From: Methanomassiliicoccaceae archaeon
Lineage (GTDB): Archaea; Thermoplasmatota; Thermoplasmata; Methanomassiliicoccales; Methanomethylophilaceae
Assembly: GCA_016282555.1 (NCBI GenBank)
Contig: JAEEKU010000154.1
Span: 1-33,821 of the forward strand
Direction of reading: 5' to 3'
DNA length: 33,821 nucleotides
Shown: positions 1,578 to 33,821 of the stretch, in pieces
How positions within the stretch are numbered: position 1 is the stretch's first letter
Layout of the letters: every line of letters starts with the position of its first letter
Translations under genes and position numbers: made by a program
The notes under the pieces: model-generated
Databases searched by the model: none
The model's input: only the letters and a program-made list of their open reading frames with translations
What the model was told of the DNA's origin: nothing

Positions 1578-3391
<1,814 letters not shown>

Positions 3392-3395
3392 ATTA

Positions 3396-3761
3396 TCAGT
3401 TGTTCCTGTTCTTTATTGCCATTACTATTCCTATAGCGGCTATGATCACGATTAGTACAATAACGGTTATTATAAAGTCGCCGGTCAGGCTGTATACCAG
3501 GCCCGAGGCGCCTATCGCGGTCAGAAGAATCCCCCCGACCATGATGGAATCGCCGTAGGAAGCCCCGAAATTGTTCGTGCCCTTTCCTCTGAATACCGAG
3601 GATACGGCGGTGAACGCTCCGAACACTATCAGCACGGTCCAGAGTGCGTTCCAGGCCTCGCCGGTAACGTAGAATATCGCAATCCCGAGCGCGATCGCGA
3701 GAAGGAATACTCCTCCGGAGATCGCCCCCCAGGTACTGTTTGAATTAGACGCCATTCTCAT
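3396..3761 (-). CDS. Small multi-pass membrane protein
   Basis: Start taken at MRMASNS (3761; MASNS at 3755 also possible). Hydrophobic segments GGVFLLAIALGIAIFYV, WTVLIVFGAFTAVSSVF, IMVGGILLTAIGASGLVY and FIITVIVLIVIIAAIGIVMAI. Confidence 0.6.
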   Translation of the reverse strand: MRMASNSNSTWGAISGGVFLLAIALGIAIFYVTGEAWNALWTVLIVFGAFTAVSSVFRGKGTNNFGASYGDSIMVGGILLTAIGASGLVYSLTGDFIITVIVLIVIIAAIGIVMAIKNRNN

Positions 3762-3766
3762 CACGC

Positions 3767-5308
3767 TCAAATTATTACTAAACTCTTTGTTCCGAGTGCG
3801 CTGACGACTTTGGGAGCCAGTTTGTCGAACGCTTTGGGAAGCACGACGCGGTCCCCGTCGGTTTTGCACGGGATATAAATCAGCCTCTTTACTACGGGCT
3901 TGCTCAGTTTAAGCTTGGAGTGCGTGGTCGAACACTGCTTGAGATACTCTTCCACGAGCTTCGTAGCTTCGGTTTTCGTGCTGAGAGGAACGATGATCCT
4001 CTTGCTTCCGGGCGAATTGGAAGCGGCGGAATCGGACAGAACGCCTATTCCTGCCCCTCCGCTTATGCTGTTCTCCTGACCCTTGATCTTGGACATTATG
4101 GACGCCTCGGGAGCTGCCCCGAATATGTCGGTAAGCCCGGTCTTCGGATTGGAGAGAGCGGTCTCCGATATCGTGAACGTGGCCGGGATGAGGAGATCCT
4201 CGGTCACTTCCACGCTCTTCTTGGAGAACAGAGCGCCGGTCGTGAAGCTGTATTTCAGATCCACGTCCCAGAAGGGGTAGAGTGTGTCGCCGTCTCCGGC
4301 GCATATCAGGAGAGAACCGGAGTCGCGTGCGGAAATGATATCCTCGATTCCTTTGAACATCTCCACGTCCCTCTCCTTCTTGTCGAGAAGGTAATTCCAG
4401 GTGGGGTTGTCGGGATATCTCAGGCTGGTGATGCTGTTGAGAGTGTTCAGCAGCTTAAGCGGATCGGAGGAGGATCCGTTGGACATCTCGGCTATGTGAA
4501 GCAGCGTTTTGGACTGCGAGACCTCGAGATCCACGGCGCGTATCATAACGGCCATAGTGGGGCTCCTCAGAAGGTTCTTTTTCGCTTCCTCGAGGCTTTT
4601 GATTCCCCTTTCCGCGTACACCGTGCAGTCCAGAGCGTTGCCGTTGAGTATATAGTCCGATGCCGTGCAGATCTCGGCGAGCGCGTTCAGCCTCTGGACG
4701 AAGGGTTCGTACCCTTTGCATCTGCTCATGTTGCTCGCTGACTCCTTGAAATTGTTAGCCATCAGAACGAATCTCCCGGGTGTGGTATCCGAGAGCAGTT
4801 TGGAATTGTTGACCATCAGAGCGTACGTGGAGGCGAGGTTTTCGGCTTCCACTATGCTGTTCTTGTTGTCGACATCGATGGCCAGAGGCTCTATGCTCTT
4901 GAGTTTCGCATTGAATTCGAAAGCATAGTTCGACGTGTATTTGGCTTTCATAGGCTCCCCTTTGCTGAACGGGAGGACTATGAGCGGATTGCTTATGACC
5001 GAGTTCATGTTGAGCTTGAACTCTCTGATCTCGGGATCGATCATAGGCTTGACGTTGTTGACGTAAATGCTGTGTCTCGCTATCGGATCGACGTTCTCCG
5101 TCTGGCTTATCGAAAAACCTCCCGGAACGGCTTTGCTTATCCAGGATTTGATCTCGCCCATCATCTGATCCATGTACGCCTTGGCGTCCACGCGCTGCTG
5201 GCTGGTACCGCAGCACTGGCACGTGACATAGGGCGATTCCGATTCCAGATCTTTCTTATCCAGCGGTGCGCCGCAATATTTGCACCGGAGTTCAACCATC
5301 TCTTCCAT
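3767..5308 (-). CDS. Large zinc-ribbon protein of unknown function
   Basis: 513 aa with N-terminal zinc ribbon LRCKYCGAPL...YVTCQCCGTSQQ. Tightly packed in the operon. Confidence 0.75.
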   Translation of the reverse strand: MEEMVELRCKYCGAPLDKKDLESESPYVTCQCCGTSQQRVDAKAYMDQMMGEIKSWISKAVPGGFSISQTENVDPIARHSIYVNNVKPMIDPEIREFKLNMNSVISNPLIVLPFSKGEPMKAKYTSNYAFEFNAKLKSIEPLAIDVDNKNSIVEAENLASTYALMVNNSKLLSDTTPGRFVLMANNFKESASNMSRCKGYEPFVQRLNALAEICTASDYILNGNALDCTVYAERGIKSLEEAKKNLLRSPTMAVMIRAVDLEVSQSKTLLHIAEMSNGSSSDPLKLLNTLNSITSLRYPDNPTWNYLLDKKERDVEMFKGIEDIISARDSGSLLICAGDGDTLYPFWDVDLKYSFTTGALFSKKSVEVTEDLLIPATFTISETALSNPKTGLTDIFGAAPEASIMSKIKGQENSISGGAGIGVLSDSAASNSPGSKRIIVPLSTKTEATKLVEEYLKQCSTTHSKLKLSKPVVKRLIYIPCKTDGDRVVLPKAFDKLAPKVVSALGTKSLVII

Positions 5309-5309
5309 T

Positions 5310-6254
5310 TCAGTTCGACCTCATCATCCTCAGTGTGCTGATCTCTCTCTGCAGCGAGCTGATCTCGGCCTGAAGCCTCGCTTCCATGGCGCGCATCTCG
5401 CTCATTGCTTTCTGGTGGTATCCGTACGCGATTTCGTCGGCGCGTTTGGACACGGCCGAATAACACGCGCGGCAGATATAGATGTGTTTGCTCTCCTCGT
5501 CCCTGTTCTTGCTGGTGCCTTCGCAGCTGCTCTCGAGGGCGAGGGCGGGAGATATGTCCGCGGGCGCCGAATAGAAGTGTATCCCCTCTCCGGAGGCGAG
5601 CCTTCCGCAGAGCCAGCACTTGCACGTATTGTTATACGCTTTGAATCTGGCCTCGTTCGCGCTTCCGCTCTGTCCGTTCTGCTTGCGGTATCCCATCGCG
5701 ATCTGCTCGTACTCCGCGGCCTTGGAGGGGTTCTCCCACACGACCGAATCGGACAGCGCCTCGAACGAAACCGCCATCAGATTGAAGAATTCGCTCGTAC
5801 CGGTAACGGTAGTGTCGTTGTTGAATATCTCCTGGATGATCAGATGATCGCTTCCGATCTTCTCCTGGAACTCCTGAGCCAGAACTTCGAGGTTCTTGGA
5901 AACGGCTTCGAGATCCTTTTTCTGCGCCCTCTGGATCATCAGGCTGACTTTCCTGAACGTCAGCTCCGCTTCTACCAGAAGACGGTCCCTGTCGACATGC
6001 GTCAGTCCGAAATCGAAGTCGTCCGACTTCAGATTTTTCAGGGCGGCGATCAGGCCGGAGTAGCAGTCCGGCTTGTCCAGCTTGCCCATCATATCGATGA
6101 GGGCGACCTGGGCGGCCGCCACGTCGTTGACTCCTCCCTCTTTGTTTATAGATTTCTGAAGCACTCCGCGCGCCTTGGAGAATTCTCCGCGCTTGATCAA
6201 TTCGTTTCCTTCGCTGTATAGGTCGTCCCCGTTCTTGAACAGTTTAAACGCCAC
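5310..6254 (-). CDS. Helical/TPR-like protein with a Cys-rich zinc-binding motif and C-terminal coiled coil
   Basis: 314 aa: EGNELIKRGEFSKARGVLQKSI (TPR-like), CKCWLCGRL ... YICRACYSAV, C-terminal coiled coil AMEARLQAEISSLQREISTLRMM. Confidence 0.7.
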   Translation of the reverse strand: MAFKLFKNGDDLYSEGNELIKRGEFSKARGVLQKSINKEGGVNDVAAAQVALIDMMGKLDKPDCYSGLIAALKNLKSDDFDFGLTHVDRDRLLVEAELTFRKVSLMIQRAQKKDLEAVSKNLEVLAQEFQEKIGSDHLIIQEIFNNDTTVTGTSEFFNLMAVSFEALSDSVVWENPSKAAEYEQIAMGYRKQNGQSGSANEARFKAYNNTCKCWLCGRLASGEGIHFYSAPADISPALALESSCEGTSKNRDEESKHIYICRACYSAVSKRADEIAYGYHQKAMSEMRAMEARLQAEISSLQREISTLRMMRSN

Positions 6255-10994: not shown

Positions 10995-11504
10995 GTGACT
11001 GACGAGTCTAAAGAGAAAAAAGAATCCTCCGCGGAAAAAGAGACCTGCGGGGAAGAGGCCGGGAAGGATGCTCTGGCGGAAGCCGAAGCCAAAGCGGAGA
11101 AATATCTGGATATGGCGAGAAGGATCCAGGCCGACTTCGACAATTACCGCAAAAGAACCGAGCGCGACAACGCCGAATTCCGCAAATTCGCCTGTTCCTC
11201 CATAATCACGGACCTCCTGACAGTGGTTGACGATCTCGACCGCGCTCTGGGCTACGCCGGAGAGGAGAACGAATTCGTGGTCGGCATACGCGGCGTCAGA
11301 TCGAATTTCATGAAAATCCTGGAATCCAACGGTCTGAAGGAGATTCCCTCGGAAGGCGATTTCAACCCCGATTTCCATGAAGCGCTGTGTATGGTGGAAG
11401 GCGAAGAAGACGGGAAGATTGCTGAGGTATTCCAGAAGGGATACACTCTCAACGGCAGAGTTCTGAGGTTCAGCAAAGTCAAAGTCACAAAGAAAACATC
11501 TTAA
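10995..11504 (+). CDS. grpE: Nucleotide exchange factor GrpE
   Basis: 169 aa: [22 protein letters not shown] ... [41 protein letters not shown] ... [16 protein letters not shown], upstream of dnaK. Confidence 0.93.
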
Positions 11505-11525
11505 GATAAAAGCAGGTGAGCAGAA

Positions 11526-13391
<1,866 letters not shown>

Positions 13392-13402
13392 GGTGTCCGG
13401 AA

Positions 13403-14539
13403 ATGCCGAGAGACTACTACGAGGTGCTTGGCGTCGACAAATCCGCCGATGCCGATGCGATCAAAAAGGCCTACAGGAACATGGCCAAGAAATACCATCC
13501 TGACGTCTCGACGGAGCCCAAGGATGTCGCCGAAGCCAAGTTCAAAGAGATATCTGAGGCCTACGAGGTCCTCTCGGATCCGGAGAAAAGGAAACTGTAC
13601 GATCAGTACGGATTCGACGGAGTGAAGCAGCAGTTCGGACAGGACGGCTTCACCTGGGACGACTTCACCCGCGCCGACGACATAAGCGACATCTTCGGAG
13701 ATATCTTCTCGGATATCTTCGGAGGGGGCAGGCGGAACAGATCCCGCAGTTCGTCGCAGGCGGGAGAATCTCTCAGATACGATCTGGAGATCACGCTGAA
13801 AGACGTTCTGGAAGGGAAGAAAGCAAGTCTCGACGTGCCTCACACCGTTTCCTGCCAGGCCTGCAAAGGCACCGGAGGAAAGGACGGAAACGTCAGCACC
13901 TGCAAGACATGCGGCGGGCAGGGACAAGTCCAGTCCGTGTCCCGCACTCCCTTCGGAAATATGATTTCGGTGAAGGATTGTCCCGACTGCCGCGGAACCG
14001 GAAAGAGCTACGCCGAGAAATGCCCGCATTGCCGCGGAACCGGAAGAACCACGAAGGAATCCCACATAAATCTGAACATTCCGAAAGGAGTGGAGGACGG
14101 CATGAAGCTGAGGGTTTCCGGAGAGGGGAACGCCGGGATCAACGGAGGCCCGTCCGGAGATCTGTTCGTGGTCGTCCATGTCAAAGAGGATAAGACGTTC
14201 GATCGCGACGGGAGCAACCTGTGGACCGGAATCGTCACCACGTATCCGAAGCTCGTGCTCGGAGGAGAGGAATCCGTAAAGACCCTGGAAGGGGAGAACG
14301 CGGTTCTCACCATACCTCCGGGGACTCAGGTCGGAACCGTGCTCAGAATCCAGGGCAAAGGGCTTCCGAGACTCAATTCCTCGCTCAGAGGGGATCTCCT
14401 GGTGAGAGTCACCATCGAAGTCCCGAAGAAGGTTTCCGAAGAGGAGCGCGATCTTCTGCGCAGACTCGACGATACCGCCGGTTCGAGACCTAAAAAGAAA
14501 TCCTCCATCCGCAAGAAGCTCGACGATATAATCAGCTGA
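13403..14539 (+). CDS. dnaJ: Chaperone DnaJ (Hsp40)
   Basis: MPRDYYEVLGVDKSADADAIKKAYRNMAKKYHPDVS; four CxxCxGxG zinc motifs. ATG at 13403 is preceded by GAGGTGT. The ORF-track start at 13388 is possible but less likely. Confidence 0.96.
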   Translation: MPRDYYEVLGVDKSADADAIKKAYRNMAKKYHPDVSTEPKDVAEAKFKEISEAYEVLSDPEKRKLYDQYGFDGVKQQFGQDGFTWDDFTRADDISDIFGDIFSDIFGGGRRNRSRSSSQAGESLRYDLEITLKDVLEGKKASLDVPHTVSCQACKGTGGKDGNVSTCKTCGGQGQVQSVSRTPFGNMISVKDCPDCRGTGKSYAEKCPHCRGTGRTTKESHINLNIPKGVEDGMKLRVSGEGNAGINGGPSGDLFVVVHVKEDKTFDRDGSNLWTGIVTTYPKLVLGGEESVKTLEGENAVLTIPPGTQVGTVLRIQGKGLPRLNSSLRGDLLVRVTIEVPKKVSEEERDLLRRLDDTAGSRPKKKSSIRKKLDDIIS

Positions 14540-14680: not shown

Positions 14681-15664
14681 ATGAACGTGGGTCTTTTCGA
14701 CAAAGTTATCAAAGACGCTACAAAAAGCCTGCAGGACGCCGTGAACAAGAAAGCCGAAGAGGCGATCGAATCCGAAGTCGGAAAAGCCGTGGACGAAACC
14801 GTTGACAAAATCGCCGAAGAGACGACTGGCAAAACTGTCAGCGAAGCCGCCGGAGCCGTTTCCGCCGGAGCGGCGGAGGCATCGGACGAACTGGGTTCCG
14901 CCCTCAAGGATCTTAATTCCGCCATAAAGGACCTGAATACGGCTATGGCGGAGGCGGAAGAGGCGACCAAAGACATAACTCCGGAACAGTGGGATCAGGC
15001 TACCTCCACGCTGGAGCGCATGGCGATGGATAAACTGAAGACCATGCACCTGTGCCTCAAATGCGACAAGCCGTTCAAAGGAGATCTGAAATTCTGTCCG
15101 GAATGCGGCTCCAGACTGACGGAAAAGTCCGTGCTGGAACTCGGCCAGTGCACGAAATGCGGAAAACAGAACGATCTCGGCGCCGAATTCTGCACCGAAT
15201 GCTCCGCGAAGCTCCCGTACAAAGAACTGCTGGAAGAGGAGGAGCGCAGAAAGGACGAACTGGTTCTGGACAGATGGAGGAAAGAGCTCCCCTGGTTCCC
15301 CGTATGGGAGTGCGGGGGAAAGCAGTTCGATCTCTCCGAACTGGAGGAAGGCAGGTATTATTTCAGTTCGTGGTTTGACGGAGACGTTTCAGCTTCAAAG
15401 AAATCCGTTCAGGATTACACCAGACGCCTGAAGGAGAACGGTTTCCATACCGCCGGGAAATATCCCGGAGACCAGCACCTCTACAAGAAGATCGACGGCG
15501 TAGTCTACCATGCGGATCTGGAGCACTGTTTCGAGGGAGATGAAGAGACTCCTTCCTTCTATTTCCTGATAAACGACGAACCCACCGGCGGATACGACTA
15601 CGTCCCGCCGGAACCCAAAAAGAAACCGTCCGGAGGAGGACTCTTCGGATCCATATTCAAATAA
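14681..15664 (+). CDS. LEA/apolipoprotein-like amphipathic helical protein with double zinc ribbon and novel C-terminal domain
   Basis: 327 aa: DKVIKDATKSLQDAVNKKAEEAIESEVGKAVDETVDKIAEE..., CLKCDKPFKGDLKFCPECGSRL, CTKCGKQNDLGAEFCTECSAKL, C-terminal tail KKKPSGGGLFGSIFK. An in-frame GTG at 14687 (MGLFDK) is an alternative start. Confidence 0.75.
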   Translation: MNVGLFDKVIKDATKSLQDAVNKKAEEAIESEVGKAVDETVDKIAEETTGKTVSEAAGAVSAGAAEASDELGSALKDLNSAIKDLNTAMAEAEEATKDITPEQWDQATSTLERMAMDKLKTMHLCLKCDKPFKGDLKFCPECGSRLTEKSVLELGQCTKCGKQNDLGAEFCTECSAKLPYKELLEEEERRKDELVLDRWRKELPWFPVWECGGKQFDLSELEEGRYYFSSWFDGDVSASKKSVQDYTRRLKENGFHTAGKYPGDQHLYKKIDGVVYHADLEHCFEGDEETPSFYFLINDEPTGGYDYVPPEPKKKPSGGGLFGSIFK

Positions 15665-21409: not shown

Positions 21410-22703
21410 CTTTGTCGGACGGAACCGATCCTCCGGACGCTATTTTGTGGCCCCCGCCGTTTCCTCCGACGGCTTCGCAGGAATATTTCATCGCTTCCGA
21501 GAGATCGACTCCCTTCTCGAGCTGGCACCACATCCCTCTGGAGGATATGTTCACGGGCTCGTTGGACAGATTCATTCCTATAGTGGGCTTGTCCGGATGC
21601 GCGATGGACTGCATAGCTATGCCGCACAGCATTCCCGTGAACCCGGAATCGCTGGTATCGAACCACTGTATGTTCCGCATCTGCTTAAGGCCCTTGGAAT
21701 CCAGATCCACCATCCCGCAGACCGTTTTGACCGAAGCTTCCCTGAGAGTCTCCTCTCCCTGCTTCAGGCATTTCCTGTCGCCCATCCCCGCGGCGATGCC
21801 GATCCCTCCTATTCCGGAGCGGCCGCAGCTGTTCAGAATGGAAGAGAGCAATTCAGAATCCATATCCATCCCGTTGAGATAGTATCTGTCGTGGACGGCT
21901 TCGTTCATGGAGGAGACCTGCATTCCCTGAACGGCGAGCTTCACCGCGATAAGCGAAGACAGTTTCCTCTTCTCCTCTTCGGAGAGGCTCCTGTAGGTTC
22001 TGTCGCCGGAGATCCCCGCGTCTTTCAGCAGAGAATCGACGCCCTCCCTGTTGCCGCTGACTCCGCGTATGTACGGATCCGTGGTCAGGTACAAGGACGA
22101 TGACAGCGTTCCAGAGGGTATAAGGGAGCCGGGCTCTCTGGTTATATATCCTCTTCCGATCCCCTCTTCCAGAAGGTAAGCGTTCAGCCCGGACAGGCCG
22201 TTTATGTGCTGTCTGTCTCCGACGATTCCCGCGAACGCCGCCTGCACCAGATCCCAGTTCTTCTCGTCCGCGGTTACGGAGAACAGCAAAGACATGGTCG
22301 CTCCGCACCCGGAGGTCATGCCGTCGATCCCGTAAAGATGGGGATTGGCGTAGCAGATCCTCCCGGCCTCCGATATCACCGTGTGGTGATCCAGAACGAT
22401 GACGTCGAACGGCATCTCGTCCAGTTCTTTAATGTAGGATGCCCCGAGATCGGTCAGAATCACGCAGCCGCATCCGCAGTCTCTGATAATGTCTATGCCG
22501 CGGCTGTTCAGCGTCGTGAAGAGCGTGACGCGGAATTCCTTTCCCATGCGGATGAGAGTCTTCGCGATTATCGCCGCGGAAGATACCCCGTCGGCGTCGT
22601 AATGAGAATAAACCTGAATAAAACCGTGGCTGCGGACTATCTCCGCGGCCTTGGTTAAAGTTGAAAGAAGTTTCTGAGGGACCTTACCGTCCATCTGACT
22701 CAC
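21342..22703 (-). CDS. Archaeal RecJ-like DHH-family phosphoesterase
   Basis: 453 aa: VYSHYDADGVSSAAI, CVILTDLGA, VIVLDHHT, C-terminal GGNGGGHKIASGG (DHHA1-like). GTG start at 22703 or ATG at 22694. Confidence 0.88.
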   Translation of the reverse strand: MSQMDGKVPQKLLSTLTKAAEIVRSHGFIQVYSHYDADGVSSAAIIAKTLIRMGKEFRVTLFTTLNSRGIDIIRDCGCGCVILTDLGASYIKELDEMPFDVIVLDHHTVISEAGRICYANPHLYGIDGMTSGCGATMSLLFSVTADEKNWDLVQAAFAGIVGDRQHINGLSGLNAYLLEEGIGRGYITREPGSLIPSGTLSSSLYLTTDPYIRGVSGNREGVDSLLKDAGISGDRTYRSLSEEEKRKLSSLIAVKLAVQGMQVSSMNEAVHDRYYLNGMDMDSELLSSILNSCGRSGIGGIGIAAGMGDRKCLKQGEETLREASVKTVCGMVDLDSKGLKQMRNIQWFDTSDSGFTGMLCGIAMQSIAHPDKPTIGMNLSNEPVNISSRGMWCQLEKGVDLSEAMKYSCEAVGGNGGGHKIASGGSVPSDKVSEFLEILDKKIGEQIASARSR

Positions 22704-23155
22704 TTAAGCATGAGCTCCGCGTTCTTGAGAGAATATTTCCACTCTGCGGGAAGGACTCCGTTTTTCTTGTAGTAGCGCTCAAGCCTTCTGATCTTAGCCT
22801 CAATCATGTTGAGACCTCTCTTGTTGGAGATGTCCCCTCTGTTGCTGTTAAGGTGAACATTGAGCGAGATCGCGCGCCTCATGAGGTTGGAAAGGTCCTC
22901 CGGAAGAGAAGGCATGACACCCTTTTCTTTCATAATCCCGGTGACGGTTTTTCCGGTAGCGAGCTTGACGTCAGGGACGCCGTACTGGTCTCTGAGTACA
23001 AGTCCGATTTTGGCGGAAACGTTGCCGTCTTTCGCGAGCTTCACTACGAGGTCCTCTATTTCGGTGGCATTGAGAGGAACCCATGCAGGATTCTCGGAAA
23101 TCATGGGACGTTTGGAGCAGGATTTACCTTTTCTTCTTGTGTGCATTCTTGCCAT
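22700..23155 (-). CDS. rps15: 30S ribosomal protein S15 (archaeal type)
   Basis: 151 aa: MARMHTRRKGKSCSKRP ... LPEDLSNLMRRAISLNVHLNSNRGDISNKRGLNMIEAKIRRLERYYKK. Confidence 0.96.
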   Translation of the reverse strand: MARMHTRRKGKSCSKRPMISENPAWVPLNATEIEDLVVKLAKDGNVSAKIGLVLRDQYGVPDVKLATGKTVTGIMKEKGVMPSLPEDLSNLMRRAISLNVHLNSNRGDISNKRGLNMIEAKIRRLERYYKKNGVLPAEWKYSLKNAELMLK

Positions 23156-23307: not shown

Positions 23308-24678
23308 ATGAAAATACTGAACAAAGTCGTATGGTACGCGGGATTCGTCGTCTCGGTCTTTCCGGTCTGCTGGGTTTTCTTCTACCTGTGGGAGGACGAG
23401 GATATATGGATGGAGATTCCCCTCGCCATAGGCATAATCGGTACCCTCTCCATAGCGGCCGCGGGAAAGGTCGGCAAAATCAATCTCGCGCCTCCCGATC
23501 CGGACACGTATCCGGTTCCGTTCATAGGCCTCAGCTCCATGGGTGGAAGCCAGATCTACGCCTTGTTCTCCTCCGGACTGATCATGCTGGCGATGTTCAT
23601 CGCCTTCGGACGGTCCCCGGTCGGAATTGCCGTGGCGCTGATCACGGTCCCCATCGGATTCGTCATGCTCCTTATGGCCGCTTTCGTGGTGCCTTATCTG
23701 GCCGCCGTGGACGGGATATTCCTGCTGTCGGTTTTCCTGGCTAAGATCATAGACAGATACGAGTACGACGTGAATACGCGCAGGTTCGTCTGCCCCGGAT
23801 GCGGAAGGAAATTCTACCGCCCGTCCTACGAGGTCGAGGGGGAACTCATCGACGGCCTGTGCCCTACCGACAAGGGCGTTTTCCACAGGGAGATGAGATC
23901 ATCCAAAATACCCTGCTTCGGTTCCAAAAGCGGAAGGAAAAGACTTCCGCAGTGCTGTCCGGCATGCAGAGAACCCGTTAATACCGAGGAGGGAAAACCT
24001 TTCGTTCTGTCCGTGGCGGGCGCGCCCTCCTCCGGAAAGACCAGTTTTATTCTCTCGGCCGCCGGAAAGGCGATTTCATCCTCCGGAAACGGAAACGCTT
24101 CTTCCGCGGAATTCTACTTCAAAAAAGACGCATCGGTACTCTCGGATTACAGGGCGGGCCGCTGCGATCCGACTCCCGTATCGTTCCTGTCTCCGCGCAT
24201 CGTGTGCTTCGAACCCAAGCATTTTCCCACGAAAAGACTGGTGTACATGTGCGACGTGAGCGGAAAATTCTTCTCCGGCGGCGTCGAGACCGATCTCCAG
24301 CCCCAGTACGTATACAACGACGCCATAGTGTTCATGATGGATCCGTTCTGCTCCGATCCCGCCGGAACGGCTTTCGGAGCGTACATAGGATTTATGGAAA
24401 AATACCGCCTCCTTAACAGGCTGGATGCTTCCAAGCAGATAACCGTCCCGTTCGCATTGGTCGTCTCTCATTCGGACAAGCCGGGTCCTTTCAGCGGAAT
24501 CAGCGGAGCGGAACTCAAAGAAAAGCTGTCCGAAGAGGGTTATTTCACCCTGGTGAACATGATTGAAAAAGACTTTTCCTCCGTATCCTTCTTCTCCTGC
24601 GACGCTTCGAAAGAAGACGGATCCGCGAGCGCCGTGATGAAGCATCTGTGCGGAAAGGAGTTCGGGCAGTTCTTCTGA
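23308..24678 (+). CDS. Membrane-anchored zinc-ribbon P-loop GTPase-like protein
   Basis: Several N-terminal hydrophobic segments, zinc ribbons CPGCGRKF and CCPACREP, Walker A GAPSSGKTS (24019-24045), DVSG (DxxG-like), VVSHSDKPG (NKxD-like position). First ATG is at 23308; the TTG start at 23278 is less likely. Confidence 0.75.
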   Translation: MKILNKVVWYAGFVVSVFPVCWVFFYLWEDEDIWMEIPLAIGIIGTLSIAAAGKVGKINLAPPDPDTYPVPFIGLSSMGGSQIYALFSSGLIMLAMFIAFGRSPVGIAVALITVPIGFVMLLMAAFVVPYLAAVDGIFLLSVFLAKIIDRYEYDVNTRRFVCPGCGRKFYRPSYEVEGELIDGLCPTDKGVFHREMRSSKIPCFGSKSGRKRLPQCCPACREPVNTEEGKPFVLSVAGAPSSGKTSFILSAAGKAISSSGNGNASSAEFYFKKDASVLSDYRAGRCDPTPVSFLSPRIVCFEPKHFPTKRLVYMCDVSGKFFSGGVETDLQPQYVYNDAIVFMMDPFCSDPAGTAFGAYIGFMEKYRLLNRLDASKQITVPFALVVSHSDKPGPFSGISGAELKEKLSEEGYFTLVNMIEKDFSSVSFFSCDASKEDGSASAVMKHLCGKEFGQFF

Positions 24679-24683
24679 AAAAA

Positions 24684-24707
24684 CCGGACCGGGATAATCC
24701 GGCCCGG
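24684..24707 (-). terminator. Hairpin CCGGACCGGG-ATAA-TCCGGCCCGG with T-tract on the minus strand
   Basis: Inverted repeat between convergent genes. Read on the minus strand it is followed by TTTTTTC, like an intrinsic terminator for the Hsp70 paralog. Confidence 0.5.
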
Positions 24708-24715
24708 AAAAAGGT

Positions 24716-26287
24716 TCATCCGAGAATGTATTTTCTGGCCTTGCGGATCTGATCGTCGTTCAGCAGACCCTTGGCGGCGAGAGTGTGGCTCTTCGTTATG
24801 TCCCTGAAGGTACAGGTGCATATAATATCTGCTTTGTCGTCGGCTTCGATGGATACCATTACAGGTTCTCCGGCCTTGCTGTCCGAGGGAATTTCCACGA
24901 CGAAAGATCCCACTTCCTCGCATTCCTCTTCGGAGACTTCCCTGTTCTCCTCGGCCTCGTCGAAATCGCTCTGGAAGATTACCACTTCCAAAGCTGTCTG
25001 TTTGTCTTTGTGGACGTAATATTCGCCCTCGTCTTTGATGGGAAGAGCGCGGTTTCTGAATATTATGTTGGAGATCAGATACTTCTGCTTCGCCTCGTCC
25101 CAGACCTTGACGCCCATCGTATGGGAGAGAACCTTCTCGATCTCGATGTTTCCCACCGTGGGAGCGAACTTGGACAGTTTTCCGTCGACCGGTTTCTCTC
25201 CGTTCCCGGTATCCACTATCACGTCGCGCGTGTTCTGATAGATCGCCGCGCCGGTCGCTATAGCCAGATCCGGATCGTGGATGTGTATCTTTGCTTCGCA
25301 CGAGGGATATGCCGCGATTATTCCCGCCTTCACCTGAGGCATGCGGGTGGATCCGCCTACAAGAACGATGTCGTCTATGCCGTCCATAGTCAGATTCGCG
25401 CTGGCCAGAGCGCTGTCGACCTTCATGATGGTCGCCTGAAGCTCCCCGGCGGTCGCCGCCTCGAACTCCTCGCGGGATACGGTGTATTTCAGAGTGGACG
25501 TTCCGAAGCGGACCGCGCCCTTGACTTCTTTCAGGGAGCTCAGGGAGATCTTCTTTCCCTCGGCCTGGGTCTTCAGGTCGGTCATGGTGTCCTCGTTGGC
25601 TTCCAGCTCTTCCATGGTTACGTCGCTGCCCTCGCACAGCTTTTCTTTTATGATCTGGATGAGCGCTGCGTCCCAGTCCTTTCCTCCGAGGTTGCAGTCC
25701 CCGTCCGTAGCCAGGACTTTGAACCTGTTGTCGCTGACCCTCATTATGGTGACGTCGAAGGTTCCTCCGCCGAGATCGTATACCAGTATATTCCTCTCGC
25801 CGGAATTCTTGAGCCCGTAAGATATTGCCGCAGCGGTGGGCTCCTCTATTATGTTGACCTCTTCGAATCCGGCTATTATTCCGGCCTGGCGGGTCGCCTC
25901 CCTCTCTTTGGGCCCGAAATACGCGGGACAGGTTATTGTCGCGCTTTTGAGCTCCGCGTCGGGATATTTCTCGAGAAAATCATCGACCAGTTTGCGGATG
26001 ATTCTCGCCGAAAGCTCTATAGGCCCTTATTCGACGCCCCCGATGTTTATGCGCCAGGTGTCGGCCTCGCTCATGTTCCTCTTCACGGCCTCGACGACCA
26101 CCTCGGCGAAACCCGCCTGATCCTTGGCGATTTCACCGACGCAGAACTCTCCGTTGTCGTACGAGATAACCGACGGGGTGGTATCGTGCTCCTGATTGTT
26201 CTTCACCACGATCGGGGTTCCGGTCGCGTTCATGATCGAAAGACAGGAATACGTGGTCCCCAGGTCTATTCCGATATCGTATATCAT
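24716..26287 (-). pseudogene. Hsp70/DnaK paralog (lidless, about 523 codons) interrupted by a single in-frame TAA at 26027-26029; may be a true nonsense mutation, recoding or an assembly error
   Basis: N-part [19 protein letters not shown]...[22 protein letters not shown]...NIGGVE, then TAA, then in the same frame GPIELSARIIRKLVDDF...ATITCPAYFGPKEREATRQAGIIAGFEEVNIIEEPTAAAISYGLKNSGERNILVYDLGGGTFDVTIMRV... to ...IRKARKYILG. 26027 and 25742 differ by a multiple of 3. Confidence 0.85.
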
Positions 26288-26470
26288 GCTGAATCCCCTT
26301 TATTATAGGATTAACGTCCTGATTCGTCATATTTTAATTAAGATATAGCGGTTTCGGACGCACGGGACGAGACGGTTTCACATTATTTTCCGGAAGCGGA
26401 CGGCGGCTGCGGGGAACTCGGTGCACCCCGCTAAGAAATTAATGAAATATGTGTATCCCCATGCCGGAAT

Positions 26471-27676
26471 ATGGCCTTCATCTGTCCGTATTGTTTTGAA
26501 TCCATCAAAAAGATAGACGACGTTCATTACATGTGTACCGATGTGGGGCACAACAGCAGCTCCATTCTGGAGGACGATCCGGAGTTCGCCAGATACCGCG
26601 GCCTGCCGTCCTATACCCGCACGTCCCACGTAGTCAGGACGTTCAACAAAAGGGATCCCAAATGCGACGTGTGCCAGGCCCGCCTGACCAGAATGCTGTG
26701 CCCGGTATGCCACAACACCCTGCCCTACGGAATCGACAAATGGGATCTGAACTTCTTCGCCGTTCTGGGCCCCCGTGCGGTCGGGAAATCACATTACATC
26801 GGAGTGCTGATCAAAGTCCTCGAGAAAATGAGCAAGGAATTCGAATGGTCTATAAGCCCCATAGATTCCAAGGTTAACGATCTTTACAACAAAAAATACG
26901 CCAACTCCCTGTTCAGCAAGAAGAAGGGCATAGATCCGACCCGCCGCGTCACTCTAGATATATACGAGCCTCTGGCGTATACCATAAAATCGTTCAACGG
27001 AAGGGTCGCCGGGCTGTTCTTCGTGGATACTGCGGGAGAAGATGTGTCCGCTGACGATTACGCTTATACCATCCAGAAGTACATCTCGAACTCCTCCGGG
27101 ATCATCTATCTGGTCGATCCCCTTCAGTTCGAGTACGTCAAAGACAGGATCGGAGCGAGAGACAGCAACCAGGCCAACTATACGAACACCCTGTCGGTGA
27201 TAAGCCAGGTTTACCGCTCCGGAAGAGGAATGAGCGTCAACAAAAAAATCGACATACCTCTGGCCGTGGTCGTGACCAAATGCGACGTCCTTCTGAGGGA
27301 GCCGACAAACGCGACCGAGGAGGAGGTTTATCTCGGCTCGGATTCAGCGATCAACAATCCCCGCAAATACGGAGTTTTCGACGACGAGAACAGCCGGCAG
27401 ATCAGCGCGGAGATGGAAGCTTATCTGGACAGGGTGAGCGGAGGAACCTTCCCCATGGCCGTAAAGAACGATTTCAAAGAATACAGATACTTCGCGGTTT
27501 CCGCGCTGGGGGCGGAACCGGATGCCAGCGGGATGCTGAAAACCGTCTCCCCCATAAGAGTGGAGGACCCGATGCTGTGGCTGATGAAGAAGGAAACTGA
27601 CGTTATACGTCCCCCGAATACCCAGGAATCGGTAAAAAAGACCATGGGATTTCTGAAGAGGCGGTTGAATGTCTGA
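26471..27676 (+). CDS. Zinc-ribbon TRAFAC-type GTPase, resembling the 'double-GTPase' (DO-GTPase2) family
   Basis: CPYCFESI, CDVCQARLTRMLCPVCHNTLP, Walker A GPRAVGKSHYIGVLI (26768-26791), FFVDTAGED (DxxG), LAVVVTKCD (NKxD-like). Confidence 0.8.
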   Translation: MAFICPYCFESIKKIDDVHYMCTDVGHNSSSILEDDPEFARYRGLPSYTRTSHVVRTFNKRDPKCDVCQARLTRMLCPVCHNTLPYGIDKWDLNFFAVLGPRAVGKSHYIGVLIKVLEKMSKEFEWSISPIDSKVNDLYNKKYANSLFSKKKGIDPTRRVTLDIYEPLAYTIKSFNGRVAGLFFVDTAGEDVSADDYAYTIQKYISNSSGIIYLVDPLQFEYVKDRIGARDSNQANYTNTLSVISQVYRSGRGMSVNKKIDIPLAVVVTKCDVLLREPTNATEEEVYLGSDSAINNPRKYGVFDDENSRQISAEMEAYLDRVSGGTFPMAVKNDFKEYRYFAVSALGAEPDASGMLKTVSPIRVEDPMLWLMKKETDVIRPPNTQESVKKTMGFLKRRLNV

Positions 27677-30017
27677 GCAGCTCGTTTACACATTGTGCAG
27701 AAGCGGAGTCGGGGTCGTAGCGGGGTACGGGGTGTATTCCGCGTCGGAGGGACTGTCCGCTTCCGACAGAACCGAGATAGAGTCGAAATACAGCATGTAC
27801 GTCGCGCCGGAGTCCGTTCCGGTGTCCGGGAAGGACGATCCGAACATACGCAGAATGCCGGTCAGCCTCGGATTCGTGAAATTAGGATCGGGATCGGAGT
27901 GCATCACGCACCAGATTTACACCGGCGCCGATTACGACAATCCGTCCAGAATGGGAAATTACATATCCCATTCCGTGGTGGATCCGTGCTTCGGATTTTA
28001 TCCGGCGGAAGCCTGCGGATTTCCCGGATTCTGCACGGACATGCATTACGATATGATGGACTGCACCGCCGCGCCTCCGGTTTAGCCTTCCGTAGAAATT
28101 GTTCCGCGGCCGATGCTGGAGAAGATTTCGGCGTTCGTGAGGGGAAAGGACAAAGCATTCTTCCGCGAGCTCGCCTACAGAGTGCTGGACGCCATGGATG
28201 ACAAACTTAAAAAAGTATATATCCGCGAAAAATACGACAATTTCAGCTGGATTGCCGCCGTCACCATGCTTTTCCCGAGAGAGATATCCAAACAGATTCC
28301 CTTCATAACGTATACCGGCACTCCGGACCGCTGCTTCCACAAACTCGCGGGAATATTCGACGAGGATCCTTCTCCCATGGTCTCTATGTTCACGCTTTCG
28401 GCGGATAATTTCAGAGAATCAGAAAGAGACGATCTCTTCGATTCGTACGTGGACAACGCTTACACGGAATCGTCGGACAGAGAGCGGTTCTTCGCGTTCC
28501 TTTCCAGAACGGGCTGGAACAGCATAGGAAAGGATATCATAAACATGTATCACCTGTTCTCGGTCTGCGAGAAGGGATTCGTTCCTTCCCCCGGGGACAG
28601 CCGCAAATCCTTCGCAGCGCTGAAATCCGTGATCCGCAGCGCGACGGATTCCGATATCGTCTCCGTTTACTCGGTGATGAAAAACGTCATGGATGCCGAG
28701 GCGGCGGATTTCTTCGGAAACGAAGCAGTTCCGGCAATGAAGGACAAGGAAGCGGCCGATCGCATCCTGGCCGAAGTCACCGCGTTCTCGCTGGAGCCTT
28801 CCCGCAGTCTGAAAGACGTCCGCTCCGTAATATCGTCGTACGAGGATCACTCCGACGAAGTCCGGAAGTGCATCAGCCTGAAATCCTTCGATCTGCTGGA
28901 CTATCCCGCGGGAAGATATTACTGCCTCAGGGAGTACGTTGCTTCCGGAGATCCGGAACTGGCCGGCGCCCTGCAGGGATTCGATCTGGACAGCCTTTCG
29001 GCGGAGGCGGCGGCCGCGGACGGGAAGACGTGCGCCGAAGCTCTGAAGAACAGTTTCCCTCTGAAACCGTCCTCCAAAGAGATGCTCAAAGAAACTGTGA
29101 TCGGATCCGCCGGAACGCTTCCCGGGGACACTCTGATCTCCCTGTTCGGACTTGCGATAAAAGAGGACAGGGCTTTCGCTATGCGCCTCTCCGAAGCGGT
29201 TTCGGACGGCCGGCCGGATCTGGCTGAGAAATTCATCATAAAATCCTCCGAAGCCGGCGATGCGGAGCTGGCTTCCTTCATATCGGACGCGTACGTCTCC
29301 CGGTACGTAAGCGGCGGAAAGGACCTCCTTCCCGCGATAACTTTCATGAAAGAGAGGGGCCCCTCCGGAAAGGAGCATCTGGCCCGTCTGATCCGGGCGC
29401 TGGCGCAGTCGATCGACTTCTCCGGATTCGGCCCCTTCCCCGCCGCCAAAGCGGCGACGGAACTGATTCCGGAAACGGAACCGGAGTCCGATGACGCCGC
29501 GCGCATACGCATGCTCGTGAACGCTGACCGCATCCGCAGAGAAGGCAGATCCGATCTGGATCTGGATCTCTCCATGCTGGACGACGCGGCCGCGAAATCT
29601 TATATCAACCTGTGTCTGGGGGCCCCGATGCCCGCGAAACACCGGGGGCAATGGATATCCGACAGGCTGGAATGCCTTAAATCGCGTCCGGACGAGGCGG
29701 CCGACCGCATGTGCACCAGCGTCATCACCACGATGTACGCCGCGTTCGACGCGGAAACGGTCGCTGCGTACATTATAGCGGCCAAAAACATCGGGGCGTC
29801 GGACGAGACCGTCTACAAGCGCCTGAAACTGGATCCGAAACAGCGCGCGAAAGTCAGGAAGCATCTGGGGAGCGGCTTCGAGGAGAGCTTCGACGCGTAT
29901 TTCGGAAAAGAGGAGGAGCCATCCGGATCCCTTAAGGATAAACTGACGGGAAAGCAGAAGGATTCCGAGGGGAAACGGTCCGCAAAGAGCATTCTCGGCG
30001 GGCTGTTCAGGAGATGA
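27669..30017 (+). CDS. GAP1-like GTPase-associated protein, one gene with an in-frame TAG at 28083-28085 (candidate pyrrolysine/readthrough codon)
   Basis: 27669-28085 and 28113-30017 lie in the same frame with no other stop between them. N-part (LVYTLCRSGVGVVAGYGVYSASEGLS...RMGNYISHSVV) looks like a GAP1 N-terminal domain. C-part (FSWIAAVTMLFPREISKQIPFITYTGTPDR...) looks like a GAP1 middle domain. No SD before the ATG at 28113. Gene overlaps the upstream GTPase by 8 bp (ATGTCTGA). Confidence 0.72.
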
Positions 30018-30021
30018 TCGG

Positions 30022-32052
30022 ATGAAAGTAGGAATAGATCTGGGAACCACTTACTCCGCAGTCGCCTACGTGGACGGCACCGGCCAGCCCGTGATAATCA
30101 AAAACGAGTTCGGCGACGAGACCACTCCGTCGATCATAGCGTTCACCGGCGGAGAGATCAGCGTCGGCAGAGAGGCCAGAGAGCTTCAGGCCGCCGGAAT
30201 AAGCACCGTAGTTTCTTCGTTCAAAAGAAACATGGGCGATCCGGACTTCTCCTTCTCCGCCGGCGGCAGGAGCTACGACGCGACCGAACTCTCGGCGATA
30301 CTTCTAAGACATATGAAGGAAGCCGCCGAAGCCCGCACCGGAGAAAAAATAGAATCGTGCGTGATCTCCGTTCCGGCGTATTTCAACGACCTCCAGAGGT
30401 CCGCGACCCTGGAAGCCGGACGCATGGCCGGCCTCAGCGTGGAGATGCTGGTTCACGAGCCTACGGCGGCCTCCGTATGCTACGGAATGAAGAACGCGGG
30501 GGACTGCACCCTGATGACTTTCGATCTCGGCGGCGGAACGTTCGACATAACCATTCTCCGCATCGTGGACGGATCGATAGAAGTGGTCGGCACACTCGGG
30601 GATCCCAATCTCGGAGGGAAAGACTGGGACGAAGTCGTCAAGGAGATTCTGGCGGAGCAGTTCTTCGACGAGTTCTCGGTGGATCTGCTCAGCGACGACG
30701 AGTTCATGACCAGGTTCTCCGTGGAAGCGGAAAAAATCAAAAAAATGCTATCTTACAATTCCCCTATCCGCGTCCCTCTCAGATTCGGAGGGAAAAGCAT
30801 GGTAGCCGTCGTTACCCGGGAAGACTTCGAATTCAGATCGTCCGGGCTCGTGGATTCCACCATAACCATGTGCGAGCGCCTCCTTTCGGAACAGAACATG
30901 TCGTGGAGCGACCTGTCCGACATCATACTGGTGGGAGGATCCACCCGCCTTCCCGCTATAAGGGAGGCTCTCAGGAAGGCGTCCGGAGTCAGACTGATCA
31001 TAAACGAGGATACCGACACCGCCGTCGCCAAAGGGGCCGCACTGCTGGCGACATCCGTGGAAGGACGCATCTCCAGACGCGCGCCCGGCGCCGGAGGAGA
31101 TACCCGCATAATGAAAGTGAGCGACGCCATAGCCCACAGCCTGGGGGCTCTGGCCGAGAATCCGGAGGGGACGATGTACGTCAACGACATAATCATCCGC
31201 CGCGGATCGAAGATACCGGTTACGAAAAAGCGCACGTTCGAGATCAAACCCCGGAACCTCACCGAAAAAATAGACATTTACACGATGCAGGGCGAGAGCA
31301 AAGCCCCCCTGGAATGCACTGTCCTGAAGATGGTTACCGCGGAGGGAATAAAAAACTCCGGAACCGGAGCCAGAATCGATATAGAATACTCCTATGACCG
31401 GAGCGGGATGGTAAACGTGCAGGCATATCAGGACGGAGAACCCCTGAGAATGATCAAAGGCGACGTTCCGGAGGACGTTTCCTGGATGGGGAAACCGATC
31501 GAAAGGAAAAAACAGGATCAGATACCGGTTTACATCATCCTGTCCATGGATCTCTCCGGAAGCATGAGCGGATCTCCGAAAAGAAAGGCCATAGCCGCCG
31601 CCCACAAATTCGTCAGAATGCTTCCGGAAGCCAGATACGCGGTGATAGCGTACGCGGACAGAACCAAGGTCCTCTGCAGCGACTGCCCCTCCTCCAAAGT
31701 CGGAACCTTCATAGACGCGCTGGGAACGACGAACGTCGGAGGATGCAACGGCGCCCATCCGTTCAAAGACATTCTGCGCCTCAATCCGGGATCCAAATAC
31801 AAAGTGTTCGAGATAACGCTCACCGACGGGCTCTGGTCCTGCTGCGACGACGCCGAGGAAACGGCTAAAGCGTGCATGAACGAGGGAATCGAATGCATCG
31901 CAGTGGGATTCGGAAGCGCGGATCACGCTTTTCTTAAGAGAATATCCTCTATGGACGAGGGAGCCCTGATGAGCAGCGTCGACGGCCTGGAATCCACATT
32001 CTCGACCATCGCCTCCTCCATCAGCTCCGGCGGATCGAGATTCATAAGGTGA
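30022..32052 (+). CDS. Hsp70 (DnaK)-von Willebrand factor A fusion protein
   Basis: [55 protein letters not shown], then C-terminal YIILSMDLSGSMSGSPKRKAIAAAHKFV with MIDAS DxSxS (31549-31569). Confidence 0.93.
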   Translation: MKVGIDLGTTYSAVAYVDGTGQPVIIKNEFGDETTPSIIAFTGGEISVGREARELQAAGISTVVSSFKRNMGDPDFSFSAGGRSYDATELSAILLRHMKEAAEARTGEKIESCVISVPAYFNDLQRSATLEAGRMAGLSVEMLVHEPTAASVCYGMKNAGDCTLMTFDLGGGTFDITILRIVDGSIEVVGTLGDPNLGGKDWDEVVKEILAEQFFDEFSVDLLSDDEFMTRFSVEAEKIKKMLSYNSPIRVPLRFGGKSMVAVVTREDFEFRSSGLVDSTITMCERLLSEQNMSWSDLSDIILVGGSTRLPAIREALRKASGVRLIINEDTDTAVAKGAALLATSVEGRISRRAPGAGGDTRIMKVSDAIAHSLGALAENPEGTMYVNDIIIRRGSKIPVTKKRTFEIKPRNLTEKIDIYTMQGESKAPLECTVLKMVTAEGIKNSGTGARIDIEYSYDRSGMVNVQAYQDGEPLRMIKGDVPEDVSWMGKPIERKKQDQIPVYIILSMDLSGSMSGSPKRKAIAAAHKFVRMLPEARYAVIAYADRTKVLCSDCPSSKVGTFIDALGTTNVGGCNGAHPFKDILRLNPGSKYKVFEITLTDGLWSCCDDAEETAKACMNEGIECIAVGFGSADHAFLKRISSMDEGALMSSVDGLESTFSTIASSISSGGSRFIR

Positions 32053-32056
32053 ACCT

Positions 32057-33821
32057 ATGGGAACGGAAAGTTTCAGAATCCTCGGGATCGACCCGTTCAA
32101 AACCTGCTCCCCGTCCGAAGCCGACGCTATCGTCGAAGAAGCGAGGAAAAAAGCGGAGATCAGGAAAACCAAGGGCCAGTCCCTTCTCGAAAAACAGAAC
32201 GCTCAGAAAGATCTCGACGCCCTCCCCGGATGCCGCAGAGACGTTCTGGATCCGGCCGTGGCGGCAAGAGCCAGGGAAGAGGTGCTTTCGATCATAACCA
32301 GGGATCTGGACAGACATCTCTTCCACCGTATCGACGGTTCGGCTGTGTTCTTCGAAAAGAACATCGATGACATTCTGGAACCGGCTCTGAAGAAGAACTG
32401 GAACGTTGACAGGGACGCGGTTTCCTTCATAAAAGGAGCGAAGATGGTCAGCGAGAAGGATTTCAAAGATCTTCCGTCCGATACCGCGTTCAGCATCCTG
32501 AACTCCCTGGGAACCGACGACATAGTCGCCTGGACGAACTCCGCCATAGACGCGCTGTATTCCGGGGACAGCGGTTCGGTTCCGCAGAAAGTCTCTCCCG
32601 ACACGTCGTATCCCACCTTCAAATCGGCGATCAACGCCGTCGCGGCCAGAGCCCAGAAGGTCCAGACGAATTCGCATTTCAAAGACGCCGCCAAGAAATA
32701 TTATCCCCTTCTGAAGAAGCTCATCCCGATGTTCGCGAACGAATCCTCGTACAAAAAGTTCAGAACGGCCGCGATCATGTACTCCGTGGAATCGGAGCTC
32801 CAGTCGGGAACGTCGTCGCTGGATTACCGCACTATCGCTTCCCTGATCAACTCCAGAATCGCCGGGAAGGGAGTGAATACGGACGAGGCTCTCCGCGAAC
32901 TGGAGAGGTTCTGCCTTTCGAAGGGAATTCTCGCCGACTTCTCCAAAGTTTCCAGAGAATACGCCGCCTGCGGATTCTGCGGATGCAGGTTCCGGATAGA
33001 CAAAGATACCAATTTCTGCCCCTACTGCAACAAGCCGATGGCCGTGAAGTGCCCCAGGTGCGGAGTGAGGAACAATTCCTCCAACATCCACTGCAAAGGA
33101 TGCGGACTCGACTTCTCGTTCCTGTCGGACATTCCTTCTCTTGAGAAGGGTCTCAGGGAGGATATCAGAAAAGGAAATATGGGATCCGTGAAGGCGGTTC
33201 TCCCGAGATTCGAGGGATACGAGGATTTCGCGGACAAATCTCTTCTCAAAGAGGCGGAAGACTTCGTGAAAGAGACCGGGGATCTGATGAGGGATCTTCG
33301 CTCGATGGAGTCTTCGGGAAAATACTGCTCCGCCCTGAAAAGATGCGAGGACTATCTCCGCATATACCCCGGACTCGATGAATTCAAGGAGATGAGAGAC
33401 CGGTATGCCGGCATAATCGCGGACGTCGACCGGAAATTCAGGGAGATCCCGGCGGGATCTGAAAGCAAGTACGTGGAGCTCGTGGCCCTGTGCTCGGATC
33501 ATCCCGGGCTGATCGGGTATTTCAACAGCCACCGCCCCGCTCCGCCCGCGAACGTAAGCGTTTCCCGCAGCGGGGACGGAAACATTCTGATTTCGATGGG
33601 AGCGCCTCCCCCCGCGGATACCACTTACCTCATAATCCGCAAAGCGGGATCCTCTCCTCTGAGCGAGAAGGACGGAGATCAGGTTGCCGAAACCAGAGAC
33701 GCGGAGTATACCGACCGCGGAATGTCTTTTGGAACGGAATACCGTTACGCGGTATACTCCAGACGCTGGGGCGTGACTTCCGCGTCCGCCGCGCTGTCCG
33801 GGCCGATCACGGTTTTCGCCG
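32057..33821 (+). CDS. Zinc-ribbon protein with C-terminal FN3-like domain (runs off the right edge)
   Basis: Translated by hand from ATG 32057, open to the window end: MGTESFRILGIDPFKTCSPSEADAIVEEARKKAEIRKTKGQS..., CGFCGCRF...CPYCNKPMAVKCPRCGVRN...CKGCGLDF, FN3-like PPANVSVSRSGDGNILISMGAPPPADTTYLIIRKAG...YTDRGMSFGTEYRYAVYSRRWGVTSAS. Absent from the ORF track because it lacks a stop. Confidence 0.8.
   Translation, partial: MGTESFRILGIDPFKTCSPSEADAIVEEARKKAEIRKTKGQSLLEKQNAQKDLDALPGCRRDVLDPAVAARAREEVLSIITRDLDRHLFHRIDGSAVFFEKNIDDILEPALKKNWNVDRDAVSFIKGAKMVSEKDFKDLPSDTAFSILNSLGTDDIVAWTNSAIDALYSGDSGSVPQKVSPDTSYPTFKSAINAVAARAQKVQTNSHFKDAAKKYYPLLKKLIPMFANESSYKKFRTAAIMYSVESELQSGTSSLDYRTIASLINSRIAGKGVNTDEALRELERFCLSKGILADFSKVSREYAACGFCGCRFRIDKDTNFCPYCNKPMAVKCPRCGVRNNSSNIHCKGCGLDFSFLSDIPSLEKGLREDIRKGNMGSVKAVLPRFEGYEDFADKSLLKEAEDFVKETGDLMRDLRSMESSGKYCSALKRCEDYLRIYPGLDEFKEMRDRYAGIIADVDRKFREIPAGSESKYVELVALCSDHPGLIGYFNSHRPAPPANVSVSRSGDGNILISMGAPPPADTTYLIIRKAGSSPLSEKDGDQVAETRDAEYTDRGMSFGTEYRYAVYSRRWGVTSASAALSGPITVFA

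Follow-up and report, generated by a model that had tools for sequence, protein, structure and literature searches.

The right-hand part of the window, as we call the whole stretch of DNA analysed (33,821 nucleotides), carries an accessory island that is an archaeal variant of the known GAP1-N2 "HSP70 theme"; what sets this variant apart is an Hsp70-vWA fusion and a paralogous core operon without GAP1. From the genes of the island we infer a GTPase-gated Hsp70 remodelling machine, with a probability of about 0.6 for this function. The idea itself is not new, because the bacterial prototype and a few archaeal occurrences were already mentioned by Kaur, Burroughs, Iyer, and Aravind (2020; PMC7159879). 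The window is an entire contig (C186) of a draft MAG (82% complete, 1.65 Mb), and the relatives of this genome in the public records are rumen Methanomethylophilaceae MAGs.

Six genes lie between position 23308 and the contig end at 33821, which cuts the last one. The ribosomal protein S15 gene (22700..23155, minus strand) forms the left flank. It is followed by a membrane DO-GTPase-like protein (23308..24678, plus strand), syntenic in loci L012-L015, and a lidless Hsp70 (24716..26287, minus strand). The plus-strand run on the other side of this gene consists of a zinc-ribbon DO-GTPase (26471..27676), GAP1 (27669..30017), an Hsp70-vWA fusion (30022..32052) and a zinc-ribbon/FN3 protein (32057..33821, incomplete). 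The GTPase and GAP1 frames overlap by 8 bases, and gaps of 4 bases separate GAP1, Hsp70-vWA and the FN3 gene; because of this tight spacing the four genes very likely form one operon. The intergenic region between this operon and the divergent lidless Hsp70 (26288..26470) likely holds promoters for both directions, as the gene positions and the conserved arrangement suggest; scans for sigma-70 promoters and terminators gave matches at chance level. Past the window end, the island should continue with the remainder of the FN3 gene, and it should also include a gene for GrpE. GrpE is convergent to the FN3 gene in the islands of L012, L014, and L015 (PF01025, 2.4e-11 in L015).

The zinc-ribbon DO-GTPase has three CxxC motifs, GPRAVGKS, DTAGED, and TKCD. 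Its matches to DO-GTPase1 and DO-GTPase2 (5.9e-5 and 8.1e-5) stay under the Pfam cut-off (score 22.9 versus 27); two relatives from core operons exceed the cut-off of 27 for PF19993, scoring 36.0 and 34.9 bits. The conserved glutamate in Walker B, which was named as a hallmark of DO-GTPases (Kaur et al., 2020; PMC7159879), is included in DTAGED. The protein encoded at 23308 has CxxC zinc-ribbon motifs and a Walker A motif (GAPSSGKT). It matched Pfam DO-GTPase2 only at an E value of 0.04, and the zinc-ribbon GTPase family at 98.5% (E 2e-15) in an hhalign profile comparison. The TM scan found four N-terminal segments and no C-terminal one.

The GAP1 frame matches GAP1-N2 (PF20013, 67.8 bits, 1.3e-18) and then GAP1-M (PF20014, 38.2 bits, 1.7e-9), both above the cut-off of 24, with a TAG interrupting the frame. 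A long alpha-solenoid (residues about 290-750, pLDDT mostly >85 in the structure prediction) and a basic/hydrophobic C-terminal tail follow. The predicted solenoid would fit a docking role. The N2 and M domains gave poor models with six sequences as input, and Foldseek searches with the GAP1 model returned only generic alpha-solenoids.

A single frame, 30022-32052, encodes both HSP70 (8e-102; NBD and SBD-beta, residues 3-472) and VWA (1.9e-7; residues 505-646). The phosphate loops of Hsp70 are present, as are the MIDAS motif DLSGS (DxSxS) and TDG. Both Hsp70s of the island match the Hsp70 profile across the NBD and SBD-beta and end before the helical lid; in the fusion, the vWA occupies the place where the lid would be. 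Domain order alone suggests that the vWA may act as the lid. If true, this would be a new way to build an Hsp70 clamp. Read through its stop, the lidless Hsp70 matches PF00012 (2.6e-87) at profile positions 2-475 of 599, and because the match reaches this far, SBD-beta seems to be retained.

The zinc-ribbon/FN3 protein consists of a helical N-terminus, a double zinc ribbon, a helical stretch (residues 353-490) that is repeat-like in the model, and FN3 repeats. The latter were recognized from an AlphaFold model, for which Foldseek returned FN3 arrays such as that of fibronectin (best E 7e-12), and the Pfam fn3 family gave no match. The helical N-terminus has a J-domain-like helix order. A J-domain is not supported for this protein, as HPD is absent, Pfam DnaJ gave no match, and a PDB J-domain was reached only at E 0.16.

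The bacterial HSP70 theme of GAP1-N2 comprises zinc-ribbon and four-TM DO-GTPases, HSP70, GrpE, a second HSP70, and an FNIII protein (Kaur et al., 2020; PMC7159879). Like this theme, the island has a zinc-ribbon DO-GTPase followed by GAP1 (N2 and M), a second, DO-GTPase-like protein with four N-terminal TM segments (the theme adds a C-terminal one), an HSP70, a second shortened HSP70, and an FNIII-repeat protein, with GrpE known here from the islands of relatives. There are also differences. The Hsp70 of the island carries a vWA domain where the lid would be; its FNIII protein has zinc ribbons and no HPD J-domain; and the host belongs to a gut methanogen family that also has a paralogous core operon without GAP1. 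The FNIII protein of the theme is fused to DnaJ or TPR repeats; that of the island has the helical N-terminus and the repeat-like stretch described above. In a subset of the theme, the second HSP70 lacks the peptide-binding domain, unlike that of the island with its apparent SBD-beta; as this concerns a subset, it does not decide membership.

The closest arrangement to be compared besides this theme is a Streptosporangiaceae locus (L041), where one operon encodes Hsp70, an FN3 protein, a zinc-ribbon DO-GTPase, GAP1, and a TM-zinc-ribbon DO-GTPase2 (3.4e-14), in this order. It differs from the island in its gene order, in an Hsp70 without vWA, and in a GTPase of only 25% identity. The Hsp70-vWA fusion was found in none of 198 genomes of the class to which this Streptosporangiaceae genome belongs, in a search run without a positive control. 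Type III CoCoNuT (PMC11090510) also combines a GTPase, Hsp70-like NBD/SBD, vWA, and zinc-ribbon in one operon, but its GTPase is of the McrB-type AAA+ kind and it includes RNases and McrC homologues, all absent from the island, and the fusion partner of its Hsp70 is McrC or McrB instead of vWA. With DnaK-DnaJ-GrpE the island shares an Hsp70 and a dedicated GrpE; it differs in having neither a helical lid nor an HPD J-protein, and in the added vWA and GTPase switch. The window also encodes an ordinary GrpE-DnaK-DnaJ set at 10995-14539. No experimental papers on DO-GTPase/GAP1 systems were found within the literature searched.

Four congeneric relatives share the genes of the island, their order, and the adjacent S15, DHH, and tsaD; the contig of one of these relatives ends inside GAP1. 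A NUDIX gene and a fibrillarin-like gene (flpA) lie on the far side of the island. Three occupied sites could be read throughout, and there S15 and NUDIX stand 12,564, 12,717, and 12,727 bp apart, versus 77-136 bp in six genomes and 678 bp in a seventh without the island. The occupied and empty distances establish that the gene block was inserted as a discrete unit of roughly 12.6 kb, of which about 10.7 kb lie inside the window. Chance grouping is excluded by the synteny in four relatives together with the empty sites. The island is patchily present, in 7 species of the genus; a PF20013 match in a further genome (G123) was not counted, being weak, below the cut-off, and interrupted by one TGA. 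The base composition of the island does not deviate. A second form, in two other species (G084 and G091; L016, L017), occupies a different genome site and has two TM-GTPases; at its end lie GrpE and the lidless Hsp70, both on one strand with it.

These results confirm the gene content given in a preliminary description of this DNA and support its reading in part. The six genes and the families it named are borne out by Pfam, motifs, profile comparison, and structure/Foldseek, and its DO-GTPase/GAP1 assignment by the GAP1-N2 and GAP1-M scores and the near one-to-one match to the theme of Kaur et al. (2020; PMC7159879). The accessory island that it proposed is seen in the occupied sites (12.6-12.7 kb) and empty sites (77-136 bp), the neighbourhood conservation that it suggested checking in the same order in four relatives, and the archaeal version that it inferred, built with Hsp70 and vWA, in the single-frame Hsp70-vWA, the second Hsp70, and the archaeal relatives. 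It had missed two in-frame stops, a TAG in GAP1 and a TAA in the lidless Hsp70.

The TAG of GAP1 (28083-28085, residue 139) lies between the N2 and M domains. The relative G080 (L015) has a TAG at the same codon in an otherwise intact island, and three other relatives have leucine. G080 is among the 28 of 31 congeneric genomes that encode PylS; a search of the window's own genome, which is 82% complete, gave no PylS match over the cut-off. TGA terminates 266 of 284 called genes, TAA 11, and TAG seven, and several of these seven TAGs are in-frame cases. The core FN3 genes of G080 and G092 (L091, L092) and a TM-GTPase gene of G084 (L016) likewise contain a single TAG in frame, with intact sequence on both sides; in-frame TAGs from antisense frames were disregarded. 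Because the TAG is shared with the PylS-bearing G080, is a rare terminator, and recurs in frame, its read-through as pyrrolysine in GAP1 is plausible. As an alternative, the TAG would be a true stop in G000 (the window's genome) and G080, yielding one protein with N2 and a second one, M/C, restarted at a nearby ATG or GTG, so that GAP1 works in two pieces. The position of the TAG between both Pfam domains and a start codon within 10 codons of it (<=10) fit such a split; the few genes terminated by TAG (7/284) and its recurrence within the FN3 and TM-GTPase genes of relatives speak against it, and we regard it as possible but somewhat unlikely. The recurrent in-frame TAGs are candidate sites of read-through as pyrrolysine in proteins that have nothing to do with methylamine use, and through them it can be tested whether pyrrolysine has spread into ordinary proteins.

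A profile of the C-terminal half of Hsp70-vWA found matches in 31/31 genomes of the genus and strong matches in 65 genomes, which belong to five genera of the family. Elsewhere in the phylum sample, no match passed 1e-30, and weak vWA-only matches in family f5 were set aside. We read this distribution as that of a core operon without GAP1. In 16 of the 24 loci examined, Hsp70-vWA, the FN3 protein, the zinc-ribbon DO-GTPase, GrpE, and the lidless Hsp70 form a collinear core operon; in the other eight, contig ends interrupt it or genes are incompletely called. This operon is syntenic and mostly single-copy, it often stands beside a SEL1-repeat gene and a gene read as a FeoB match, and neither GAP1 nor the TM-GTPase occurs in it in any of the 24 loci. 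The window's own genome carries it on contig C94 (L018, 3061-10707, reaching the contig end), with a SEL1-repeat gene, Hsp70-vWA, the FN3 protein, DO-GTPase, and GrpE; this operon is unusually divergent from its orthologues.

Quick trees, with several long branches, were built for Hsp70-vWA and the GTPase. The Hsp70-vWA tree separates the GAP1 type (99) from the core type (93), and the core copies cluster largely by genus, with the window's genus in two clades. The GTPase tree supports the core clade and does not support one joint GAP1 clade. The island is paralogous to the GAP1-less Hsp70-vWA core operon of five genera. The core Hsp70-vWA copy of the window's genome has a very long branch, which points to a fast-evolving or decaying copy. 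The GAP1-type clade may go back to an old duplication or may have been imported, and Firmicutes relatives are likely other hosts.

Hsp70s are ATP-driven clamps that are reset by GrpE and normally driven by a J-protein, vWA domains bind ligands via the MIDAS metal, and TRAFAC GTPases are switches. In the remodelling machine that we favour, Hsp70-vWA would be the ATP-driven clamp, gripping a partner or client with the metal-binding vWA in the lid position; the dedicated GrpE would reset it and the lidless Hsp70 would assist it. The zinc-ribbon/FN3 protein would serve as scaffold and client selector. The two DO-GTPases, one cytosolic and one in the membrane, would form with GAP1 a GTP-dependent switch that sets when and where the clamp works. 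The machine would likely assemble or remodel protein complexes at the membrane rather than kill invaders directly, and the island with GAP1 and TM-GTPase would be a membrane-tethered form of the machine. We counted in its favour the family matches, the likeness to the theme of Kaur and to L041, the synteny, GrpE beside the FN3 gene, the empty site, the spread of the core operon, the trees, and the intact nucleotide-binding and MIDAS motifs; the failure to find a J-domain with HPD in the FN3 protein, which was searched for it, and the two in-frame stops in this genome count against it. A wider reading is tentative, though worth considering: the family would have an undescribed core chaperone machine, a vWA-"lid" Hsp70 gated by a GTPase, with the GAP1 islands as membrane-tethered derivatives and with pyrrolysine carried outside methylamine metabolism by GAP1, the FN3 scaffold, and the membrane GTPase.

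GAP1/DO-GTPase systems have so far been viewed as mobile conflict systems, mostly of multicellular bacteria. As an anti-virus or conflict system of the kind proposed by Kaur et al. (2020; PMC7159879), the island would sense an invader through the FN3 protein, set a threshold through GTPase-GAP1, and contain the invader in Hsp70 assemblies. This is unlikely, even though the published classification places GAP1-N2 families among the conflict systems (PMC7159879) and both the empty sites and the patchy presence of the island would fit. No PADLOC family matched at E up to 1, and no effector domain occurs among the island genes seen. Searches for a viral or plasmid carrier near the island found no phages and no viral contigs among its relatives; on plasmids, the GTPase matched only two Rhodococcus megaplasmids (26-28% identity), and GAP1 and Hsp70-vWA matched none. 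The conservation of the paralogous core operon, near-universal, mostly single-copy and syntenic, argues against a purely anti-phage role. The defence role raised in the preliminary description is therefore not upheld, and an envelope-stress or proteostasis role is possible. In the core operon of gut methanogens, the coupling of Hsp70 to a GTPase could be studied without presuming defence.

The TAA of the lidless Hsp70 (26029-26027) is private to this genome, with TAC (Tyr) in four relatives, and may reflect decay or an assembly error. Because of this stop and the GAP1 TAG, the island may be partly decayed here, but that both inactivate it and leave no working system is improbable. The six genes, about 3,400 codons together, contain no other stop or frame shift; G080 has the GAP1 TAG in an otherwise intact island; PylS is present in G080 and most of the genus; and a single TAA in a draft MAG may be an assembly error.

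Some further genes were noted. In a run of minus-strand genes at 1578-6254 of the window, one gene encodes a Band-7/SPFH protein that has a zinc ribbon (PF13421, 7.4e-21), and the four other genes tested from this run had no Pfam match. The second island form (L016, L017) lies directly after an argC-like gene, judged by eye. A double-zinc-ribbon protein is encoded at 14681-15664 (plus strand), directly after the ordinary GrpE-DnaK-DnaJ set.
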